From: Streptomyces corallincola
Lineage (GTDB): Bacteria; Actinomycetota; Actinomycetes; Streptomycetales; Streptomycetaceae
Direction: 5' to 3'
Assembly (NCBI RefSeq): GCF_019104725.1
Contig: NZ_JAHRXF010000008.1
Coordinates: 1 to 64,000 of the forward strand
Length of the DNA stretch: 64,000 nt
Shown piece after piece: positions 51,272 through 62,360 of the stretch (the stretch's first letter is position 1; the number at the start of each line of letters is the position of its first letter). A program made the translations under genes and the position numbers. A model generated the notes under the pieces. The model saw only the letters and a program-made list of their open reading frames with translations, did no database searches and had not been told where the DNA came from.

Positions 51272-52183
51272 CTACTTGACCGCGCCCGCCATCACCCCGG
51301 ACACGAACTGCCGCTGGAAGGCGAAGAAGACGACGAGCGGGACGACCATCGAGATGAAGGCGCCCGGCGCCAGCACGTCGATGTTGTTGCCGAACTGGCG
51401 GACCTGGGTCTGGAGCGCGACCGTGATCGGCTGCGAACCGGACTTGGTGAACACCAGCGCGACCAGCATGTCGTTCCACACCCACAGGAACTGGAAGATG
51501 CCGAGGCTTGCCACGGCGGGACCGCCCAGCGGCATCACCACCCGTGCGAACAGCCGGAGTTCACCCGCGCCGTCCAGCCGGGCGGCCTCCAGCAGTTCGC
51601 GGGGGATCTCCGCGAAGAAGTTCCGCAGCAGGAACACCGCGAACGGCAGCCCGAACCCCACATGGAACAGGATCACCCCGAGGATCGACCCGAACAGGCC
51701 GATGGAGCCGAACAGTTCGGCGATCGGGATGAGCGCCACCTGCACCGGCACCACCAGCAGACCGACCACGCCGAGGAACCACCAGTCCCGGCCGGGGAAC
51801 TCCATCCACGCGAACGCGTAGCCCGCGAGCGAGCCGATCACCACCACCAGCACCGTCGCCGGGACCGTGATCAGCACGGTGTTCAGCAGCGAGTGCGTGA
51901 TGTCGCCGTTCTCCAGCAGCCTGCGGTAGCTGGCGAAGGTCAGCTTCGACGGCTCGGACAGCACCGTCCACCAGCCGCTCGCGCTCATGTCCTCGGGCGC
52001 GCGCAGCGAGGAGATCAGCAGCCCGATGGTCGGCACCAGCCAGAACAGCCCGACCAGCAGCAGCACCACCCGGACCAGGCCGCCGCCGAGCCGTTCCGCG
52101 ATCCGCGTCCCCAGCGGGGTCCGCGCCCTCGTTCCGGCCGGGGCGGAGGCCGCCCCGCCGGCCCGTGTGGCGGTCGCCGTCAT
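51272..52183 (-). CDS. Carbohydrate ABC transporter permease (MalG type)
   Basis: A 303-residue permease with six transmembrane helices (VRVVLLLVGLFWLVPTIGLL at the start). The EAA loop contacting the ATPase is EIPRELLEAARLDGAGELRLFARVVMPL near residues 195-222. It is the MalG-like half of a sugar importer. The ATG overlaps the stop of the partner permease (ATGA). No ATPase gene is in the cluster; in Streptomyces a shared ATPase such as MsiK often serves several such importers (established for the genus). Confidence 0.93.
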   Translation of the reverse strand: MTATATRAGGAASAPAGTRARTPLGTRIAERLGGGLVRVVLLLVGLFWLVPTIGLLISSLRAPEDMSASGWWTVLSEPSKLTFASYRRLLENGDITHSLLNTVLITVPATVLVVVIGSLAGYAFAWMEFPGRDWWFLGVVGLLVVPVQVALIPIAELFGSIGLFGSILGVILFHVGFGLPFAVFLLRNFFAEIPRELLEAARLDGAGELRLFARVVMPLGGPAVASLGIFQFLWVWNDMLVALVFTKSGSQPITVALQTQVRQFGNNIDVLAPGAFISMVVPLVVFFAFQRQFVSGVMAGAVK

Positions 52184-53574
52184 CGCCGCACCTCCCGCCT
52201 GAGCCGACGCACGTTGAACAGCATCACCGGGATCACCAGCAGGAGCAGCAGCACCGCGATGGCGCTGGCCACGCCGGGCCGCCCCTCCGCGAAGCCCTTG
52301 CGGTACAGCTCCAGCGCCAGGACGTTCGCGTCGTCCTGGGAGGAGCCCGGCGCGATGATGTACACGAGGTCGAACACCTTCAGCACATTGATCATCAGGG
52401 TGACGGTGACCACCGCGAGCACCGGCGCCAGCAGCGGCACGGTGACCTTGCGGAACACCTGCCACTCGCTCGCGCCGTCCACCCGCGCCGCCTCCAGCAG
52501 CTCACGCGGCACGCCCGCGAGCCCGGCCGCGATCAGCATCATGGCGAACCCGGCCCACATCCACACGTACGACCCGATGATCGCCGGGGTGACCAGCGAC
52601 GGGCCGAGCCAGTCCACGCCGTTGTACGGCTCCTTGAAGTTGCTCGCCGGAAGCCGCAGTCGGGCGCCGTCGGCCGACCCGGGCAGCGTGAAGGTGCCGT
52701 TCGCCGCCGCCGTGGTGGACGCGACGACCTTGCCGTCCTTCACCGCCTCGACGCGCATCCCGGCGTACCCCCGCTCGGAGGCGTCCGGGGCGCCGAGCCT
52801 CCCGACGCCCCTGCCACGGGTGAAGTCCTGCCAGGTGGTGCCGGTGACCCTGCCCGGCTCCGGCTTCGCGGCGGCGGCGGGCCGCGCGGAGTCCGGCATC
52901 ACGTCCGGGGCGACCCCGACCAGCGGCAGCGCCACCGGCCGCCCGGCGCGCACCGGGGAGACGGTGACGAACCCGCCGCCCTCCGCCCTCAGCGGCGACT
53001 GCCGCCCCGGATGCGCCTTCGGGTACGCCGACGACTGCGCGAACGTGTCGTGCACGCCCACCCACACCGCGTTGGCGACCCCCCGGTCCGGGTCCTGGTC
53101 GTACACCAGCCGGAAGATGATCCCGGCGGCCAGCATCGAGATCGCCATCGGCATGAAGACGACCAGCTTGAACGCCGTTCCCCAGCGCACCCGTTCGGTC
53201 AGCACCGCGAAGACCAGACCGAGCGCGGTGGAGACGGTCGGGGCGAACACCACCCAGATGACGTTGTTCTTCAGGGCGGTGCGGATGCCGTCGTCCGTGA
53301 ACAGCGCCGTGTAGTTGGCGCCGCCCGCGAAACCGTCCCCGGCGGTGTTGAGGAAACTGCGCACCACGGAGTACCCGATCGGGTAGACCACGAGCGCCCC
53401 GAGCAGCACCAGGGCGGGCAGCAGGAACAGCGCCGCCACCGCCCTGCGCGTACCGGTCACGCTCCGCGGACTCCGGCCACCGCCGGGGGACTTGGAGACC
53501 GGGCCCCCGGCGGCGGGACCATCGGAGGCGGCGGGGCCCGGTGGGGACCCGGCCGCGGCGGCCGACGCGGTCAC
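52180..53574 (-). CDS. Carbohydrate ABC transporter permease (MalF type) with soluble insert
   Basis: A 464-residue permease, about 150 residues longer than usual. Helices lie near 45-66, 103-125, 134-156 and 328-352, followed by the EAA loop (VPRELLEAARVDGASEWQVF, 355-375) and two more helices. Between helix 3 and helix 4, residues 160-325 form an extra soluble region, where ordinary family members have only a short DPD..GLIN-to-GVDWLG loop. Its second half (GYAGMRVEAVKDGKVVASTT, GTFTLPGS) looks like a beta-sandwich carboxypeptidase-regulatory or Ig-like domain. GTG start 4 bases after the lipoprotein gene. Confidence 0.9.
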   Translation of the reverse strand: MTASAAAAGSPPGPAASDGPAAGGPVSKSPGGGRSPRSVTGTRRAVAALFLLPALVLLGALVVYPIGYSVVRSFLNTAGDGFAGGANYTALFTDDGIRTALKNNVIWVVFAPTVSTALGLVFAVLTERVRWGTAFKLVVFMPMAISMLAAGIIFRLVYDQDPDRGVANAVWVGVHDTFAQSSAYPKAHPGRQSPLRAEGGGFVTVSPVRAGRPVALPLVGVAPDVMPDSARPAAAAKPEPGRVTGTTWQDFTRGRGVGRLGAPDASERGYAGMRVEAVKDGKVVASTTAAANGTFTLPGSADGARLRLPASNFKEPYNGVDWLGPSLVTPAIIGSYVWMWAGFAMMLIAAGLAGVPRELLEAARVDGASEWQVFRKVTVPLLAPVLAVVTVTLMINVLKVFDLVYIIAPGSSQDDANVLALELYRKGFAEGRPGVASAIAVLLLLLVIPVMLFNVRRLRREVRR

Positions 53575-55155: not shown

Positions 55156-58100
55156 CTACAGCAGGGACGGGACGCGGGCCGCCGACACCTCCCGCGCGGC
55201 GCGTTCCACCGCGCTCGCCAGCAGGGCCAAGTCCGTTGGCCCGTTGCCCAGTTCACGGACCGGGCGACGGGTCGGCGGGTCCCCGGTGCGCTGCCACTCC
55301 AGCGGGACCACCGTGGGCCGCAGGGTCGCGGTGCGCGGGATGCGGCCGGTGACCCGGCCGCCCTGGAAACCGGTGCGGACACCGTCCCCGGACACCAACA
55401 CCCCACGCCCCGGCGCCGGTTCGTCCGGCCCGGCCGCCGGGGCGTCCAGCGTCACCCGCAGCGCCGCCTGCCGCACCGGCTCCGTCTCCGCCGTACGGCC
55501 ACCGGGCGCGGAGGCGGCCACCAGATGCACGCCGAGCCGCGCGCCGTCCCGCGCCACCGCCTCCAGCGCCCGCAGCACCGAACCGGCGGCGGGCCGCCCC
55601 GGCGAACCCAGCGCCGGGGACACCAGCGCGTCCAGGTCGTCCACGACCACCACCAGACGGGGCAGCGGTGCCGTCCCGCCGGGCGGCGGCCCGGCCTCCG
55701 CCTGCCGGGCCGCCGCGCCGGGGCGCAGCCGCATGGTGGAGCTGGGCGGGGTGTCCAGGTCGCCGTTGCCCGGCTGCTCGTAGGGCGCGGGCCGGTCGGT
55801 GCGCTCCGGGCGGTCGGTACGGTCCGTGCGGTCGGTGCGCTCCGGGCGGTTCAGCGGGGTGCGCTGGGCGACGATCCGGCCCGACACCTCGCGCCCGGTG
55901 TGCCACTGGGTGAAGTCGCCGCGCCCCAGCAGCTCCGCGCGCCGCTTCAGCTCGGCGCTCAGCGACTGCGCGAACTCCCGCATGCGGACGGGGTCGTTGG
56001 CGATCAGGTGGGTCGTCACGTGCGGGATGTCCGTGCAGGTCCGCAGGCCCTCGCAGCGGCCCGCGCCGGTGCCCACGCCGTCCCGGCCGTCGATCAGCAC
56101 CATGCTCAGCCGGTCCGGGCGTTCAGCGGCGGCCAGCGAGGCGACCACCGCCCGCAGCAGCTCCGTACGGCCGCTGCCCGCCGGGCCCTCGACCAGCAGA
56201 TGCGGGCCGTCCGCGACCAGATCGGCGGTCAGCGGCCCGCGCGGCCCGGCGCCCAGCACCGCACGCGCCCGGCCGCCCAGCGACCCGGTGTCGTCCGCCG
56301 CGTCCGCCCAGCGCGCCATCAGCGACGCCGGGGTGGCCCGCGCCAGGCCCAGCTCGTCCAGCAGCCGCGCCGACCTCGGCAGCGGCACGGCCGCCCGCGC
56401 GTGCCGGTCGCCCGCCGGACCGTCCGGCCGCAGCGGCGCCAGCGCCCGCGCGAAGCGCTCCGCCCAGGCCGCCGACACCGCGTCCACCACGGCGGGGGTG
56501 CCCTCCCCGACCGGGCCCGTCGGCGCCACCCGCGTCAGCCGCAGCGTCCCCGCCACGTCCCCGCCGAGCAGCGCCACCGCCCCGCAGTGCCGGAACGTCG
56601 GCGTCGCCGCGCAGGCCGCCTCGTACGTCCGCGTCACCGGCGAGGACGCCGTCGCCGCCGGGATGTCCGCCAGGCACACCACGTGGATCCCGGCGCGCGG
56701 CCCCGCCACCGCGAGCCGCGCCAGCGACTCGTGCAGCGCGGCTCCGCCGGGATCGCCGTCCACCACGACCACCGTGTACGGGCCGGGGAACCCGCCCGGA
56801 CCGTCCGCCTCCCGCGCCCACGAGGGCCGCCGGGCATCGGCGCCCTGCGGTGCGGCGGCTCCGGCGGGCCGGTCGTACGGCGGCTCCTCCCCGGTTCCCC
56901 GGAGGGGGGCCGTGCCGGAGCGGGCGCCCGGCGGGTGCGTGGTCCCGGCGGCGCGGTCGGCGGGTGCCGCCGTGCCCGCCCGGGCGGGACCCCGCCCCCC
57001 GTGCGCCGCGTGTTCCTCGACCCGGCGCAGCAGTTCCGCCGTACGGGCCGCCACCTGTTCGCGGTCGAACGCCAGCAGCAGACGGCAGTCCTGGCCGCGT
57101 CCGGGACGGACGTGCGGCAGCCAGCCCAGCCACGCCCACTCGGCGACGCGCTCCGCCTCGGGGCGTGCCCGGTCGGCGCTGATCAGCACGATCTCCAGCA
57201 GATCGGGGGAGTGCAGCGCGGTGAGCTGGGCCAGTACCGCGCGCGCGGCCCCCGACAGCCGGGGGCGCGGACCGGCCAGGCCCAGCGCGCCCGCCTCGCG
57301 GAGCGCCGCCGTCACCGGGACGGCGGGCAGCACGCCCGAGCCGTCCGGCGCCCCCCGGTCCGCCGTGCCGAGCCGTACGGTCAGCGCCTCCGGGTGCCCC
57401 GCGCCGCGCTCCCACAGCCGGGGTCCCGGACCGAGCGCCGTCAGCAGCAGCGCGGCCATGTCCGGCCAGGTCTCGGGGGACTTGGACACCTCGGCCGGGA
57501 ACGTCTCCGGGACCGCGCCGGACACCGGCCCGGTGTCCGCGCCGGGCTGCTCCGGGCCGCCGCCCCGGGCACCGCCCGCCAGCCGCCGCGCCCAGGCGCC
57601 GAGACCCCGTCTGCGTGCCTCGGAGCGCGCGGCACCGGTGCCCTCGTCGGGAGCGGAGCCGGGGTCGCGGTCCGGGCCGGGGGCGCCGCCGACGCCGTAC
57701 CGGCCCGCGTGCGTGTCCCCGCCCGGCAACCCGGCCGGGATCGGGATGCCCGCGCCTCCGGCGGTCACCGTGAAGGGGCGTCCCGTACGCGGGTCGGTGT
57801 ACGGGCGGCGCTCCGCGTGGTCTCCGGAACCCGGCCCGCCCCCGGAACCCGTCGCGTACCCGTGCCCGGTGCCGTACGCGTGCCCCGTGGGACCGGCCGG
57901 GCCGTGCGCCCCCCGGTCCGCCGCCGTACGCGCCCCCGGCACCCGCGCGCCCTCCGCCACGCCCCCGGCGTCGGCGTCCTCCCCCGGCGCCGGACGCAGG
58001 CACCCCTCGCCGTCCGGCACCGTCCGCACCCGGGCCCCCGGTCCGCCGGACGGGGTGACACGGAGCGCCGACTCACCGATGCGGAGCAGCGCGCCCGGCG

Positions 58101-58659
58101 CGAACGCCACCGGGTGCCCGCCGACGCGCACCCCGTCCAGGACGGTGCCGTTGGTGGAGCCCAGGTCGGCCAGCGAGGCGGTGCCGTCCGGGGCGACGGT
58201 GACCGCGCAGTGCAGGCGGGAGACGTCCGGGTCGTCGAGGGGGACGTCGGCGTCGGCCGAGCGGCCCACGGTGATCCGGCCGCCGTGCAGCAGATGGACC
58301 CCGCCCGCGTCCGGCCCGGCGACCACGTGCAGCTGGGTCGGGGCGTCGTCCAGCTCGGGGTGCGGTTCGGCCGCCGCCGGGGCGCCCAGCGCCAGTACGG
58401 CACCGTCCACCAGCGGCGGTTCGCCCAGCAGGCAGCGGCGCGGGTCGAGGCGTTCCGGACCGGCGTACAGCACCACCGGGGCACCGCCGGTGTCCCGGCC
58501 GGTACCGCCGCCGTCGCCGGTGACCGCGGCGGCCAGCGCCGACGCCACCGCCGCGAGGTCGGTTCCGGTCGGCGCCGTGACCAGGACGTCACGGCTCACG
58601 GCACGGCCCCGCTGCGGGGACGGCCCCGGCGGATCTACGACGGTCAGCCGGATCTGCAT
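55156..58659 (-). CDS. FHA domain protein with EccC/FtsK-like ATPase region
   Basis: A 1167-residue cytoplasmic protein. Residues 1-92 may be a ubiquitin- or FHA-like fold (RDVLVTAPTGTDL, LLGEPPLVDGAVLALG). Residues 123-201 are an FHA domain with GRS at 132-134, SRLH at 147-150 and STNG at 168-171. A disordered linker follows. From about residue 395 the sequence resembles the EccC/EssC region after the membrane anchor (GPRLWERGAGHPEALTVRLG, LLAQL-like, WLGWLPHVR). An ATPase-like core has GPAGSGRT at 825-832 and VVVVDDLDALV (Asp1007-Asp1008). No transmembrane helix is visible. Divergent from two Ser/Thr kinase genes. Confidence 0.85.
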   Translation of the reverse strand: MQIRLTVVDPPGPSPQRGRAVSRDVLVTAPTGTDLAAVASALAAAVTGDGGGTGRDTGGAPVVLYAGPERLDPRRCLLGEPPLVDGAVLALGAPAAAEPHPELDDAPTQLHVVAGPDAGGVHLLHGGRITVGRSADADVPLDDPDVSRLHCAVTVAPDGTASLADLGSTNGTVLDGVRVGGHPVAFAPGALLRIGESALRVTPSGGPGARVRTVPDGEGCLRPAPGEDADAGGVAEGARVPGARTAADRGAHGPAGPTGHAYGTGHGYATGSGGGPGSGDHAERRPYTDPRTGRPFTVTAGGAGIPIPAGLPGGDTHAGRYGVGGAPGPDRDPGSAPDEGTGAARSEARRRGLGAWARRLAGGARGGGPEQPGADTGPVSGAVPETFPAEVSKSPETWPDMAALLLTALGPGPRLWERGAGHPEALTVRLGTADRGAPDGSGVLPAVPVTAALREAGALGLAGPRPRLSGAARAVLAQLTALHSPDLLEIVLISADRARPEAERVAEWAWLGWLPHVRPGRGQDCRLLLAFDREQVAARTAELLRRVEEHAAHGGRGPARAGTAAPADRAAGTTHPPGARSGTAPLRGTGEEPPYDRPAGAAAPQGADARRPSWAREADGPGGFPGPYTVVVVDGDPGGAALHESLARLAVAGPRAGIHVVCLADIPAATASSPVTRTYEAACAATPTFRHCGAVALLGGDVAGTLRLTRVAPTGPVGEGTPAVVDAVSAAWAERFARALAPLRPDGPAGDRHARAAVPLPRSARLLDELGLARATPASLMARWADAADDTGSLGGRARAVLGAGPRGPLTADLVADGPHLLVEGPAGSGRTELLRAVVASLAAAERPDRLSMVLIDGRDGVGTGAGRCEGLRTCTDIPHVTTHLIANDPVRMREFAQSLSAELKRRAELLGRGDFTQWHTGREVSGRIVAQRTPLNRPERTDRTDRTDRPERTDRPAPYEQPGNGDLDTPPSSTMRLRPGAAARQAEAGPPPGGTAPLPRLVVVVDDLDALVSPALGSPGRPAAGSVLRALEAVARDGARLGVHLVAASAPGGRTAETEPVRQAALRVTLDAPAAGPDEPAPGRGVLVSGDGVRTGFQGGRVTGRIPRTATLRPTVVPLEWQRTGDPPTRRPVRELGNGPTDLALLASAVERAAREVSAARVPSLL

Positions 58660-59109
58660 CGCCGTCAGCGGTCCCTTCTGCGCGTGCGCGGTCGGCCCCG
58701 GCCCCTGGGCCGTGCCCGCGAAGCCCGCCCGGCACGCACTCCCCGTGCGGGGGCGTCCCCGGTCGCGTCGGCGCGACCCAGCACGGGCGTCTCGGCCAGT
58801 AACTGCACGCATCCTCGCACCTGTCACCGGCGCCGCGCCCGCCCCCGGCGGCCAAGTGATCTTGATTGGTCAGCTCTGCCCCCAAAAGTGCCCGACAAGT
58901 GGCCGACCCGTCACGCTTCGGTGATCACTTGAGACCGATCACGTCCGCCCCCTGGCAACCGGACGACCGGGGTGAGCGTCTTTCCTTCGAACATGGTCGT
59001 GACGGTCCGCGTGGTGTTCAGGGGGGCGGCACTACAGTGGGCCGAGTGCCGAACCGGCGGCGGACCGGTTCCGGGAAAGCAAGCAGCCAAGCAGCAGGGA
59101 GCGCGTGAC
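58660..59109. promoter_or_regulatory. Divergent region between FHA gene and pkaA
   Basis: 450 bases with no supported gene. CAAGTGATC (58853-58861) and its complement GATCACTTG (58923-58931) face each other about 61 bases apart. A related CCGATCACG follows at once. The part from 58850 to 59030 is the AT-richest and probably carries both promoters. The pkaA ribosome site is GGGAG. Confidence 0.4.
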
Positions 59110-60867
<1,758 letters not shown>

Positions 60868-60890
60868 CCGGGGCGCCGGGGCCGCCGTAC

Positions 60891-60970
60891 GGCGTTCGGG
60901 CGGGCCGGGAGACATTCGGGAGGGCCGGGAGACGTTCGGGAGGGCCGGGAGACGTTCGGGAGGGCCGGGA
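60891..60970. repeat. 20-base tandem repeat, four units
   Basis: Four head-to-tail copies of GACGTTCGGGAGGGCCGGGA; the last two are identical, the third differs from the second by one base and the first by two or three. It starts 23 bases after the pkaA stop. Confidence 0.9.
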
Positions 60971-61133
60971 AAGCGGTCCACCCGGCCGCAACCGGCCCCA
61001 TTCCGGCAAAGACGCCAACCCGTCACCGGCTTTGCGGATTTATCGATATCTGACGGGTGATTTCCGTCCCCGCGGTGAAGGTTGGCGCTCCAGGCGCGTA
61101 GTTTGGCGACAACACGCGTCCGTAGGAGCAGCC
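60971..61133 (+). promoter_or_regulatory. pkaB upstream region
   Basis: 163 bases after the tandem repeat. TTTGCGGATTTATCGATATCTGACGGG (61031-61057) is clearly AT-richer than its surroundings and is the likely promoter zone for pkaB. AGGAG precedes the TTG start. Confidence 0.4.
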
Positions 61134-62360
61134 TTGGCACGGAAGATCGGCAGCCGGTACACCGCCCACCAGATCCTGGGGCGGGGCAGCGCCGGCACGG
61201 TATGGCTGGGCGAGGGGCCGGACGGTCCCGTCGCGGTCAAGCTGCTGCGCGAGGACCTCGCCTCCGACCAGGAACTCGTCGGCCGCTTCGTCCAGGAGCG
61301 CACCGCGCTGCTCGGCCTGGAGCACCCGCACATCGTCACCGTCCGCGACCTCGTGGTGGACGGCAACGACCTGGCGCTCGTCATGGACCTGGTGCGCGGC
61401 ACCGACCTGCGCACCCGACTGGAGCGCGAGCGCAGGCTCGCCCCCGAGGCGGCCGTCGCCATCGTCGCGGACATCGCGGACGGCCTCGCCGCCGCGCACG
61501 CGGCCGGGGTCGTGCACCGGGACGTCAAGCCCGAGAACGTCCTGCTCGACATGCGGGGACCGCTCGGCCCCGGCGGCTCCCACCCCGCGCTGCTCACCGA
61601 CTTCGGTGTCGCCAAGCTGATCGACTCGCCCCGCCGCACCAGGGCCACGAAGATCATCGGCACCCCCGACTACCTCGCCCCCGAGATCGTCGAGGGCCTG
61701 CCGCCGCGCGCCGCCGTGGACATCTACGCGCTGGCCACCGTGCTCTACGAACTGCTGGCCGGGTTCACCCCGTTCGGCGGCGGCCACCCCGGTGCCGTAC
61801 TGCGCCGACACGTCACCGAGACCGTCGTCCCGCTGCCCGGCATCCCCGAGGAGCTGTGGCAGCTGCTGGTGCAGTGCCTCGCCAAGGCACCGGCGTCCCG
61901 GCTGCGCGCCTCGGAGCTGGCCGCCCGGCTGCGCGAGCAGTTGCCGCTGCTCGCCGGGATGCCCCCGCTGGACGTGGACGAGCCGGGCGCCGAGGCCGCC
62001 GCCGAGCAGGCCGAGGAGAGCACGCCCGCGGCCGGTACCGGTGAGCCGGTGCGGCGCCGGGGCGCGGTCTCCCTCGTCCCCGGCGCCAAGCCCGACTCCA
62101 ACCGGGACACCCACACCTCGATGCGCGTCCCGGGCCCCGACGAACTGGCCGGGGGAGCGCTCGGCACGGCCCGCGCCCCCCGGACGCCCGGAGCGCCCCG
62201 GCCCGGCTCCGCACGACACCGGGCCGCCGCCCGGCGCCGCCGGATCACCCTGGGCCTGGCCGGGGTCGCGCTGGCCGCCGCCGTCGGCGCCGGTGCCTGG
62301 GCCGCCACCTCGGGCGGCGACGAGCCCTCCGACGGCACGCACAGCACGTCGGCGCCCTGA
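61134..62360 (+). CDS. pkaB: Ser/Thr protein kinase, PkaB type
   Basis: A 408-residue kinase. The domain (about 9-270) has GRGSAG (16-21), Lys36, HRDVKPEN (catalytic Asp130), DFG at 156-158 and APE at 182-184. A ~100-residue disordered segment, a basic stretch (RHRAAARRRR) and one transmembrane helix (about 370-392) follow, with only 16 residues outside, so no sensor domain such as PASTA is present. The start is a rare TTG, set by AGGAG upstream and by the kinase N-terminus MARKIGSRYT. Symbol by similarity and by position before prfB. Confidence 0.92.
   Translation: MARKIGSRYTAHQILGRGSAGTVWLGEGPDGPVAVKLLREDLASDQELVGRFVQERTALLGLEHPHIVTVRDLVVDGNDLALVMDLVRGTDLRTRLERERRLAPEAAVAIVADIADGLAAAHAAGVVHRDVKPENVLLDMRGPLGPGGSHPALLTDFGVAKLIDSPRRTRATKIIGTPDYLAPEIVEGLPPRAAVDIYALATVLYELLAGFTPFGGGHPGAVLRRHVTETVVPLPGIPEELWQLLVQCLAKAPASRLRASELAARLREQLPLLAGMPPLDVDEPGAEAAAEQAEESTPAAGTGEPVRRRGAVSLVPGAKPDSNRDTHTSMRVPGPDELAGGALGTARAPRTPGAPRPGSARHRAAARRRRITLGLAGVALAAAVGAGAWAATSGGDEPSDGTHSTSAP

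Follow-up and report, generated by a model that had tools for sequence, protein, structure and literature searches.

A 64,000-nucleotide stretch of the Streptomyces corallincola genome (contig NZ_JAHRXF010000008.1, positions 1 to 64,000; hereafter the window) carries, head-to-head with the Ser/Thr kinase gene pkaA, a gene for a 1,167-residue protein (P0001) in which an FHA domain precedes a soluble body related to EccC and EssC, the ATPases of type VII secretion systems (T7SS). Conservation, gene linkage and motifs identify P0001 as a family-wide FHA/pseudo-ATPase neighbour of PkaA and, probably, its partner. We propose that P0001 is a phosphothreonine-reading scaffold that docks on PkaA and does not act as a motor, a reading to which we give an even chance of being right. 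The initial annotation of this region had suggested a soluble, possibly ATPase-dead scaffold reading kinase signals; a soluble, EccC/EssC-related FHA protein tied to PkaA-type kinases was indeed found across the Streptomycetaceae, while the dead-ATPase part was borne out only in part. To that annotation we add the kinship of P0001 with a paralogue (P0002), its end before a second ATPase domain, Thr motifs in PkaA and a sigma-E-type promoter. Based on synteny, we infer that the gene is the orthologue of Streptomyces coelicolor SCO2975.

Profile searches supported both halves of this architecture. The Pfam FHA model matched residues 129-195 with 56.8 bits (cut-off 20.7), and the GRS, SRLH and STNG motifs previously read there are all present. 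Arg133, SRxH (147-150) and STNG (168-171) are kept in 24/24 family sequences and in 46/46 Streptomyces sequences, with Ser134 replaced by Ala or Gly in six of the 24. Here, the family set comprises the window and two distant members of the genus, along with 21 loci representing 15 other genera (one locus with a broken frame, L170, was excluded from this comparison and its alignment, A3), and the Streptomyces set draws on 45 of the 80 named loci (43 are in alignment A1 and all 45 in A2, each together with the window). Further along the protein, Pfam FtsK_SpoIIIE matched residues 808-1049 (53.0 bits; cut-off 24), and the NCBIfam models for EccCa (126.6 bits over profile positions 178-538; cut-off 509.15) and EssC (66.9 bits; cut-off 778.4) both placed P0001 under their curated equivalog thresholds. 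The NCBIfam models for FhaB/FipA (NF049868; 62.2 bits, cut-off 125) and OdhI (NF041660; 33.9 bits, cut-off 200) also scored below cut-off, and the FtsK equivalog model gave no match to P0001 at E<=0.1.

Comparisons with known structures pointed the same way. The best sequence matches of P0001 in the Protein Data Bank (PDB) were EccC chains (4nh0, 7np7 and 7b9f), and its FHA part matched GarA, OdhI and TB39.8 among other entries. AlphaFold models were taken for fold class only: that of the body has two alpha/beta cores (mean pLDDT 57.3, low confidence) and its top PDB matches in Foldseek were EccC and EssC (4n1a, E 2.4e-14), at a query TM-score of only 0.21-0.26, and the N-terminal model (58.9, low confidence) was best matched by FHA domains (3gqs, E 5.9e-4). 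At its extreme N-terminus this low-confidence model predicts a strand-strand-helix-strand-strand order, with ubiquitin-like matches to 6sgz_E from the ESX-3 complex (E 0.034) and to a mouse ubiquitin-like domain (E 0.034). The collinear N-terminus of P0002 scores 20.2 bits with Pfam YukD, under the cut-off of 27, and we tentatively regard the first domain of P0001 as ubiquitin-like.

P0002, a 1,594-residue protein encoded on another contig (C36) of the same genome, has a hydrophobic membrane region and three FtsK_SpoIIIE stretches. BLASTP aligned the two paralogues collinearly through the N-terminal region (E 3e-8), the first two nucleotide-binding domains, NBD0 (5e-15) and NBD1 (1e-20), and the surroundings of Walker B (0.004), in agreement with the EccC/EssC-like body proposed at the outset. 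A further match at the linker before ATPase 2 (E 0.18) is not significant alone; the GPTDL core of this linker is invariant in all 25 members of A3, P0002 included. The two proteins form a complementary pair, in that P0002 has a GTTGSGKS Walker A and a VDE Walker B and no FHA match (the only such member of A3, the other 24 matching the FHA profile), and P0001 shows the reverse. We also noted, beside the P0002 gene, a weak WXG100-like gene (locus L013, 6608-6925, minus strand; E 0.0079, below the Pfam cut-off) that hints at a further T7SS locus.

P0001 has no membrane helix, as had been claimed for it: its maximum over 19-residue Kyte-Doolittle windows (KD19) is 1.42, compared with 2.02 in the membrane region of P0002, and the linker between FHA and ATPase parts stays at or below 0.96 in 24/24 orthologues. 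A helix hidden upstream is unlikely because the N-terminal start sequence is conserved, MQIRLTV being invariant in 46/46 Streptomyces sequences and the distant orthologues readable from the start opening with MQIRL(T/S) (L170 has V for M). Motor parts are missing too. P0001 contains one FtsK_SpoIIIE stretch, lacks ATPases 2 and 3, and stops close to the point at which a second ATPase would start; of 18 orthologues inspected, all 13 that have the exact string GNGPTDL terminate 20-35 residues past its start. The absence of ESX genes nearby likewise held, since the three WXG100 matches in the genome (E<=0.001) lie on contigs C35 and C16, and none on C90, the contig of P0001.

Both Walker motifs are altered in the way first described, with Arg831 in place of the P-loop Lys and with VVVVDDLD, beginning at residue 1003, giving Asp1007-Asp1008 at Walker B. 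P0001 also lacks the DYKGG and ATQR segments seen in P0002. In Walker B motifs generally, the second acidic residue is the catalytic base. Asp1008 proved to be conserved throughout the family (Asp-Asp in 24/24 sequences). Arg831 was conserved in Streptomyces, where it occurs in 27/29 genus sequences (L054 and L056 have Lys; L073 was excluded from this count for a run of N in the gene) and in 46/46 of the named set, but not elsewhere: the 21 loci from other genera have Lys in 16 cases and Arg in five, and the two distant genus members are split, with Lys in L151 and Arg in L152. We therefore rejected Arg as a family-wide mark. Most simply, the P-loop Lys would have been lost late and repeatedly, the Asp-Asp being older, and its retention in most other genera suggests that nucleotide binding was probably ancestral and has been weakened mainly in Streptomyces. 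The label 'ATPase-dead' fits the Asp-Asp found in every sequence read and fits poorly with the Lys kept in other genera.

Searches with the last 448 residues of P0001 gave a strong match (best >200 bits) in 30/31 genus genomes, the sole miss (G017) being an assembly of ~1140 contigs. In a sample of the order, 45/45 genus genomes matched with an E of at most 1e-39; the 15 genomes of other families gave matches in 12 cases, all <97 bits, and none in three. Across a class sample of 148 genomes (11 from the genus), no non-genus genome exceeded 103 bits. Within the family, 121/121 genomes from 17/17 genera matched at E<=1e-27. Paralogues can reach 1e-29, and at least one locus per genus was therefore examined for the 16 other genera, revealing an intact orthologue in 15; in the remaining genus (g88; L170 8632-10317, minus strand) the frame is broken between the FHA and ATPase parts, reflecting either an assembly error or a pseudogene. 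Orthologues are likely absent outside the family, where three paralogues examined in full (L174-L176) have strong hydrophobic stretches and no such adjoining kinase; the FHA profile scored over its cut-off in L176, the other two giving only sub-threshold Yop-YscD_cpl traces. The 80 named loci are all from Streptomyces, but that search reaches close relatives only.

An unrooted tree of 38 rows, taking in 18 of the 53 family loci surveyed plus the window, separated 19 orthologues, across a branch supported at 100/100, from 17 paralogues together with two EccC-type proteins of the genome, leaving a close kinship of P0001 with EccC unsupported. The tree does not give the direction of descent, because it is unrooted and the long branch of the EccC proteins joins it among the paralogues; we infer that a membrane-anchored ancestor gave rise to the soluble form.

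The two Ser/Thr kinases noted beside the gene were confirmed (Pkinase 182.1 and 160.3 bits). A neighbourhood survey covered 56 loci, including 53 from the family: a PkaA-type kinase adjoins the P0001 gene on the opposite strand in 50/53 family loci (contigs end inside the gene at L049, L054 and L055), and a single adjacent kinase is seen at L141. The gene for a sugar-binding protein of sugar transport on the other flank is absent or non-orthologous in 12/53 family loci (L054 is at a contig end), so that the link to the kinase is the tighter of the two. PkaB of S. coelicolor has been shown experimentally to be tail-anchored, and little is said to be known of it in that species; it is described as near mycobacterial PknA, pkaA being the counterpart of pknB (PMC3087755). 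A kinase of the spore-wall complex, PkaI, is reported to interact with PkaA in a two-hybrid screen (PMC4416010), in keeping with an envelope role. Elsewhere in this neighbourhood, ARAGORN called a tRNA-Arg antisense inside pkaA (60381-60458, minus strand), probably a false positive, and a sugar ABC permease frame (52180-53574, minus strand) has an insert of ~100 residues between membrane segments that, by eye, resembles a MalF-type loop.

We newly noticed Asp-Pro-Thr-x-Val-Leu motifs in the tail of PkaA, which are plausible docking sites for the FHA domain. With an acidic residue before the Thr and a Leu at +3, these motifs are of a kind suited to both the kinases and the FHA domains of actinobacteria. 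Tails were counted from 150 residues past the HRD motif through the last residue of the frame, including the membrane helix and sequence beyond it, and were available for PkaA in 47 of the 50 kinase loci (L061 was too short; L066 and L134 fell under the best-match score limit) and for PkaB in 42 of the 50. The strict motif, [DE]xT[QAT]V[LIV], is present in 30/47 PkaA tails versus 0/42 PkaB tails. A broader form occurs in 40/47 PkaA tails, at a mean of 1.53 versus 0.23 in shuffles, and in 4/42 PkaB tails, at a mean of 0.12 versus 0.44; the sole broad match in L147 (DFTSWV) appears, by look, to fall in the membrane helix or later sequence. Among the kinases of the genome itself (23 of 25 loci readable), the strict motif is found in PkaA alone. 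In Mycobacterium tuberculosis, the phosphorylated juxtamembrane region of PknB is said to bind FhaA (PMC12077195, citing Roumestand 2011). Shortly after the DPT motifs, the PkaA tail also contains a Gln/Asn repeat (NQNQNQ; ~60240-60330, plus strand).

Upstream of pkaA, the sequence GGCAAC-N17-CGTCTT fits the pkaA site given in a study of sigma-E in S. coelicolor, whose chromatin immunoprecipitation sequencing (ChIP-seq) listing includes sco2974 (pkaA) and sco2975, the support cited for pkaA being ChIP-seq and motif (PMC6767563). A tight sigma-E pattern was found toward pkaA in 68/69 named Streptomyces loci and on the opposite strand in 0/69, against one match in 1.42 million positions elsewhere in the same loci; a looser pattern gave 69/69 and 8/69, respectively (the other 11 of the 80 named loci, whose match stops short of the N-terminus, were omitted). 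Two conserved blocks in this divergent intergenic region are possible regulator sites: one of 18 bp, GACCAATCAAGATCACTT as read in the direction of the FHA gene (58854-58871), invariant in 12/12 aligned Streptomyces loci, and near it a second, CGTGACCGATCTCAAG.

Table 1 Features of the P0001-pkaA-pkaB region, in window coordinates.
Feature	Position	Strand	Remark
P0001 gene	55156..58659	-	FHA / EccC-related soluble, putative pseudo-ATPase; 1167 aa; ATG start
P0001 N-terminal domain, residues 1-95	58375..58659	-	ubiquitin-like (YukD/EccD-like), tentative; from strand order in model and collinearity with P0002
P0001 FHA domain, residues 109-203	58051..58335	-	phosphothreonine-binding residues in place
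P0001 variable linker	57478..58050	-	Gly/Pro-rich; position of the membrane region of P0002
P0001 NBD0/'DUF', residues ~395-730	56470..57477	-	EccC N-terminal nucleotide-binding-like domain; variable insert ~555-625; boundaries set here
P0001 NBD1-like (ATPase 1) domain, residues ~731-1115	55315..56469	-	boundaries set here
P0001 Walker A, residues 825-832	56164..56187	-	GPAGSGRT; Arg831 replacing Lys
P0001 Walker B, residues 1003-1008	55636..55653	-	VVVVDD; Asp-Asp replacing Asp-Glu
P0001 conserved C-terminal element GNGPTDLALLASA	55195..55248	-	site of the ATPase1-ATPase2 linker of P0002; C-terminus of protein soon after
Sigma-E-type promoter sequence	58954..58982	+	GGCAAC-N17-CGTCTT, toward pkaA
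pkaA	59110..60867	+	membrane-anchored Ser/Thr kinase; head-to-head partner of P0001 gene
PkaA DPTRAL	60055..60072	+	candidate FHA docking motif, broad pattern only
PkaA DPTTVL	60178..60195	+	candidate FHA docking motif, strict pattern
PkaA DPTAVL	60214..60231	+	candidate FHA docking motif, strict pattern
PkaA C-terminal membrane helix, residues 527-545	60688..60744	+	KD19 2.24
pkaB open frame	60810..62360	+	true start probably near 61100
PkaB weak C-terminal helix	62244-62300	+	KD19 1.77

Taken together, these observations suggest how P0001 and PkaA might operate. P0001 would be a soluble phosphothreonine reader akin to the front half of a T7SS ATPase, made up of a probable ubiquitin-like domain, an FHA domain, NBD0 and NBD1. 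A promoter of the sigma-E type, responding to cell-envelope stress, would drive the membrane kinase PkaA, which would autophosphorylate Thr residues in the Asp-Pro-Thr-x-Val-Leu motifs of its own tail; the FHA domain of P0001 would bind the phosphorylated tail and so recruit the pseudo-ATPase body to the membrane-bound kinase, and there the body may present substrates or partners. The simplest account of this body is that, at least in Streptomyces, it would have lost hydrolysis and no longer be a motor, and that its downstream partners may be kinase substrates, other nucleotide-binding domains or envelope machinery. A more far-reaching version, in which envelope stress, via sigma-E and PkaA tail phosphorylation, leads a cut-down and rewired secretion motor to dock and to control an EccC/FtsK-type motor or the envelope-building machinery in trans, as a stress module common to the family, we regard as rather doubtful.

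A number of points weigh against the proposal. Both motif patterns were defined after seeing PkaA sequences, leaving PkaB and the other kinases as the independent controls; the broad form is unspecific, since 12/23 readable kinases of the genome have it, and it is absent from 7/47 PkaA tails (L070, L073, L139, L141, L148, L149 and L152). The structural models are of low confidence, and an ATP-binding role may persist, given the Walker A Lys of most other genera. As for regulation, pkaA lies outside the nine conserved sigma-E targets for which S1 mapping or in vitro transcription is given as validation, and for sco2975, entered as a hypothetical protein, the site listed is poor (PMC6767563). 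That listed site sits on CGTGACCGATCTCAAG and lacks an AAC element; a sigma-E promoter belonging to the FHA gene itself is therefore unsupported, as is its induction by sigma-E. The tight sigma-E site toward pkaA is present in just 5/24 more distant loci and is missing in L151 and L152, the two distant members of the genus, so that the kinase-FHA link, being more widely spread, is probably older than the promoter.

The same evidence can be read in other ways. P0001 might be a phospho-controlled regulator that gates or poisons EccC-type motors in trans, pairing with them through NBD0, NBD1 and the ubiquitin-like domain once a partner has been phosphorylated by a kinase. Its kinship with FHA-type secretion ATPases and its retained front motor parts would suit this role, as would the contact of the EccD ubiquitin-like domain with the first nucleotide-binding domain of EccC and the presence of kinases and FHA proteins in several T7SS variants (PMC11217815). 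However, the contig has no WXG100 gene, and matches at the level of an FHA-type motor (~76-110 bits, judged by score and frame length, with the copy in the genome of the window examined as sequence) occur in 15/31 genus genomes against 30/31 for the P0001 gene. Such a motor is thus not an obligate partner, and we set aside the idea of a dedicated one; EccC-like matches are commoner than the FHA-type motor among these 31 genomes, going by scores. On balance we think a T7SS regulator unlikely.

Two further alternatives turn on the protein itself. P0001 could be a working, perhaps slow, ATPase or an ATP-dependent switch whose FHA domain recruits substrates, the P-loop being otherwise intact and its Lys widely kept outside the genus; the second Asp of Walker B could then serve as a weak base. 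Against this stand the invariant Asp-Asp, the near-uniform Arg of Streptomyces and the absence of the DYKGG and ATQR segments, which together make continued catalysis, to our minds, quite improbable. Least likely of all is a self-bound switch of the GarA/OdhI type, in which a Thr phosphorylated by a kinase in the protein's disordered insert before Walker B (PPSSTxRLRP) would cause the FHA domain to fold back upon it. This motif is kept through many Streptomyces within an otherwise variable insert, but L054, L070, L071, L072, L144 and L148 have lost the Thr or carry another residue in its place, the motif was not found in the remaining excisable non-genus inserts, and the OdhI model scored far below its cut-off. 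A Thr so unevenly conserved makes no family-wide switch, and Thr975 was demoted from candidate to weak rival.

Should PkaA-docked scaffolding by P0001 prove right, PkaA and PkaB, long-known Streptomyces kinases with few known partners, would gain a dedicated and conserved reader, a precise Thr motif and a possible link to an envelope-stress sigma factor. In open-access literature we found nothing joining PkaA, PkaB, Streptomyces and FHA, and PkaA was not found in that on FHA, FtsK, kinase and Streptomyces (most subscription journals lie outside these searches); SCO2975 is named there in one paper and SCO2974 in two; the texts of PMC6767563 and PMC4416010 do not mention FHA, and that of the paper on T7SS variants (PMC11217815) does not mention Streptomyces.

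P0001 appears to be built from known parts, and its conservation makes the earlier observation stronger than was stated. It resembles EccC/EssC (TsxC), and above all P0002, in the order of N-terminal region, NBD0 and NBD1, but differs from them in lacking membrane helices and ATPases 2 and 3, in its Asp-Asp Walker B and in its contig without WXG100. With the mycobacterial PknA/PknB adaptors FhaA (Rv0020c) and FhaB/FipA it shares an intact FHA domain tied to a PknA/PknB-like kinase pair; to our knowledge, neither adaptor has an EccC-like body. The TsdC and TseC proteins of the T7SSd and T7SSe variants, as described in PMC11217815, combine an FHA domain, its phosphothreonine residues conserved, with an EssC-type ATPase, in systems that include Ser/Thr kinases (TsdD and TseD), but unlike P0001 they are membrane-bound, retain all C-terminal NTPase domains and belong to secretion clusters. 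Finally, CwlM, a cytoplasmic amidase homologue described as a phosphorylated regulator whose enzyme activity is dispensable (PMC4946905), resembles the proposed P0001 as a cytoplasmic enzyme homologue turned kinase-controlled regulator. CwlM differs in having an amidase fold and in being itself the phosphorylated partner, whereas P0001 would be the FHA reader; a secretion ATPase turned signalling protein would thus parallel the enzyme fold recruited in CwlM.

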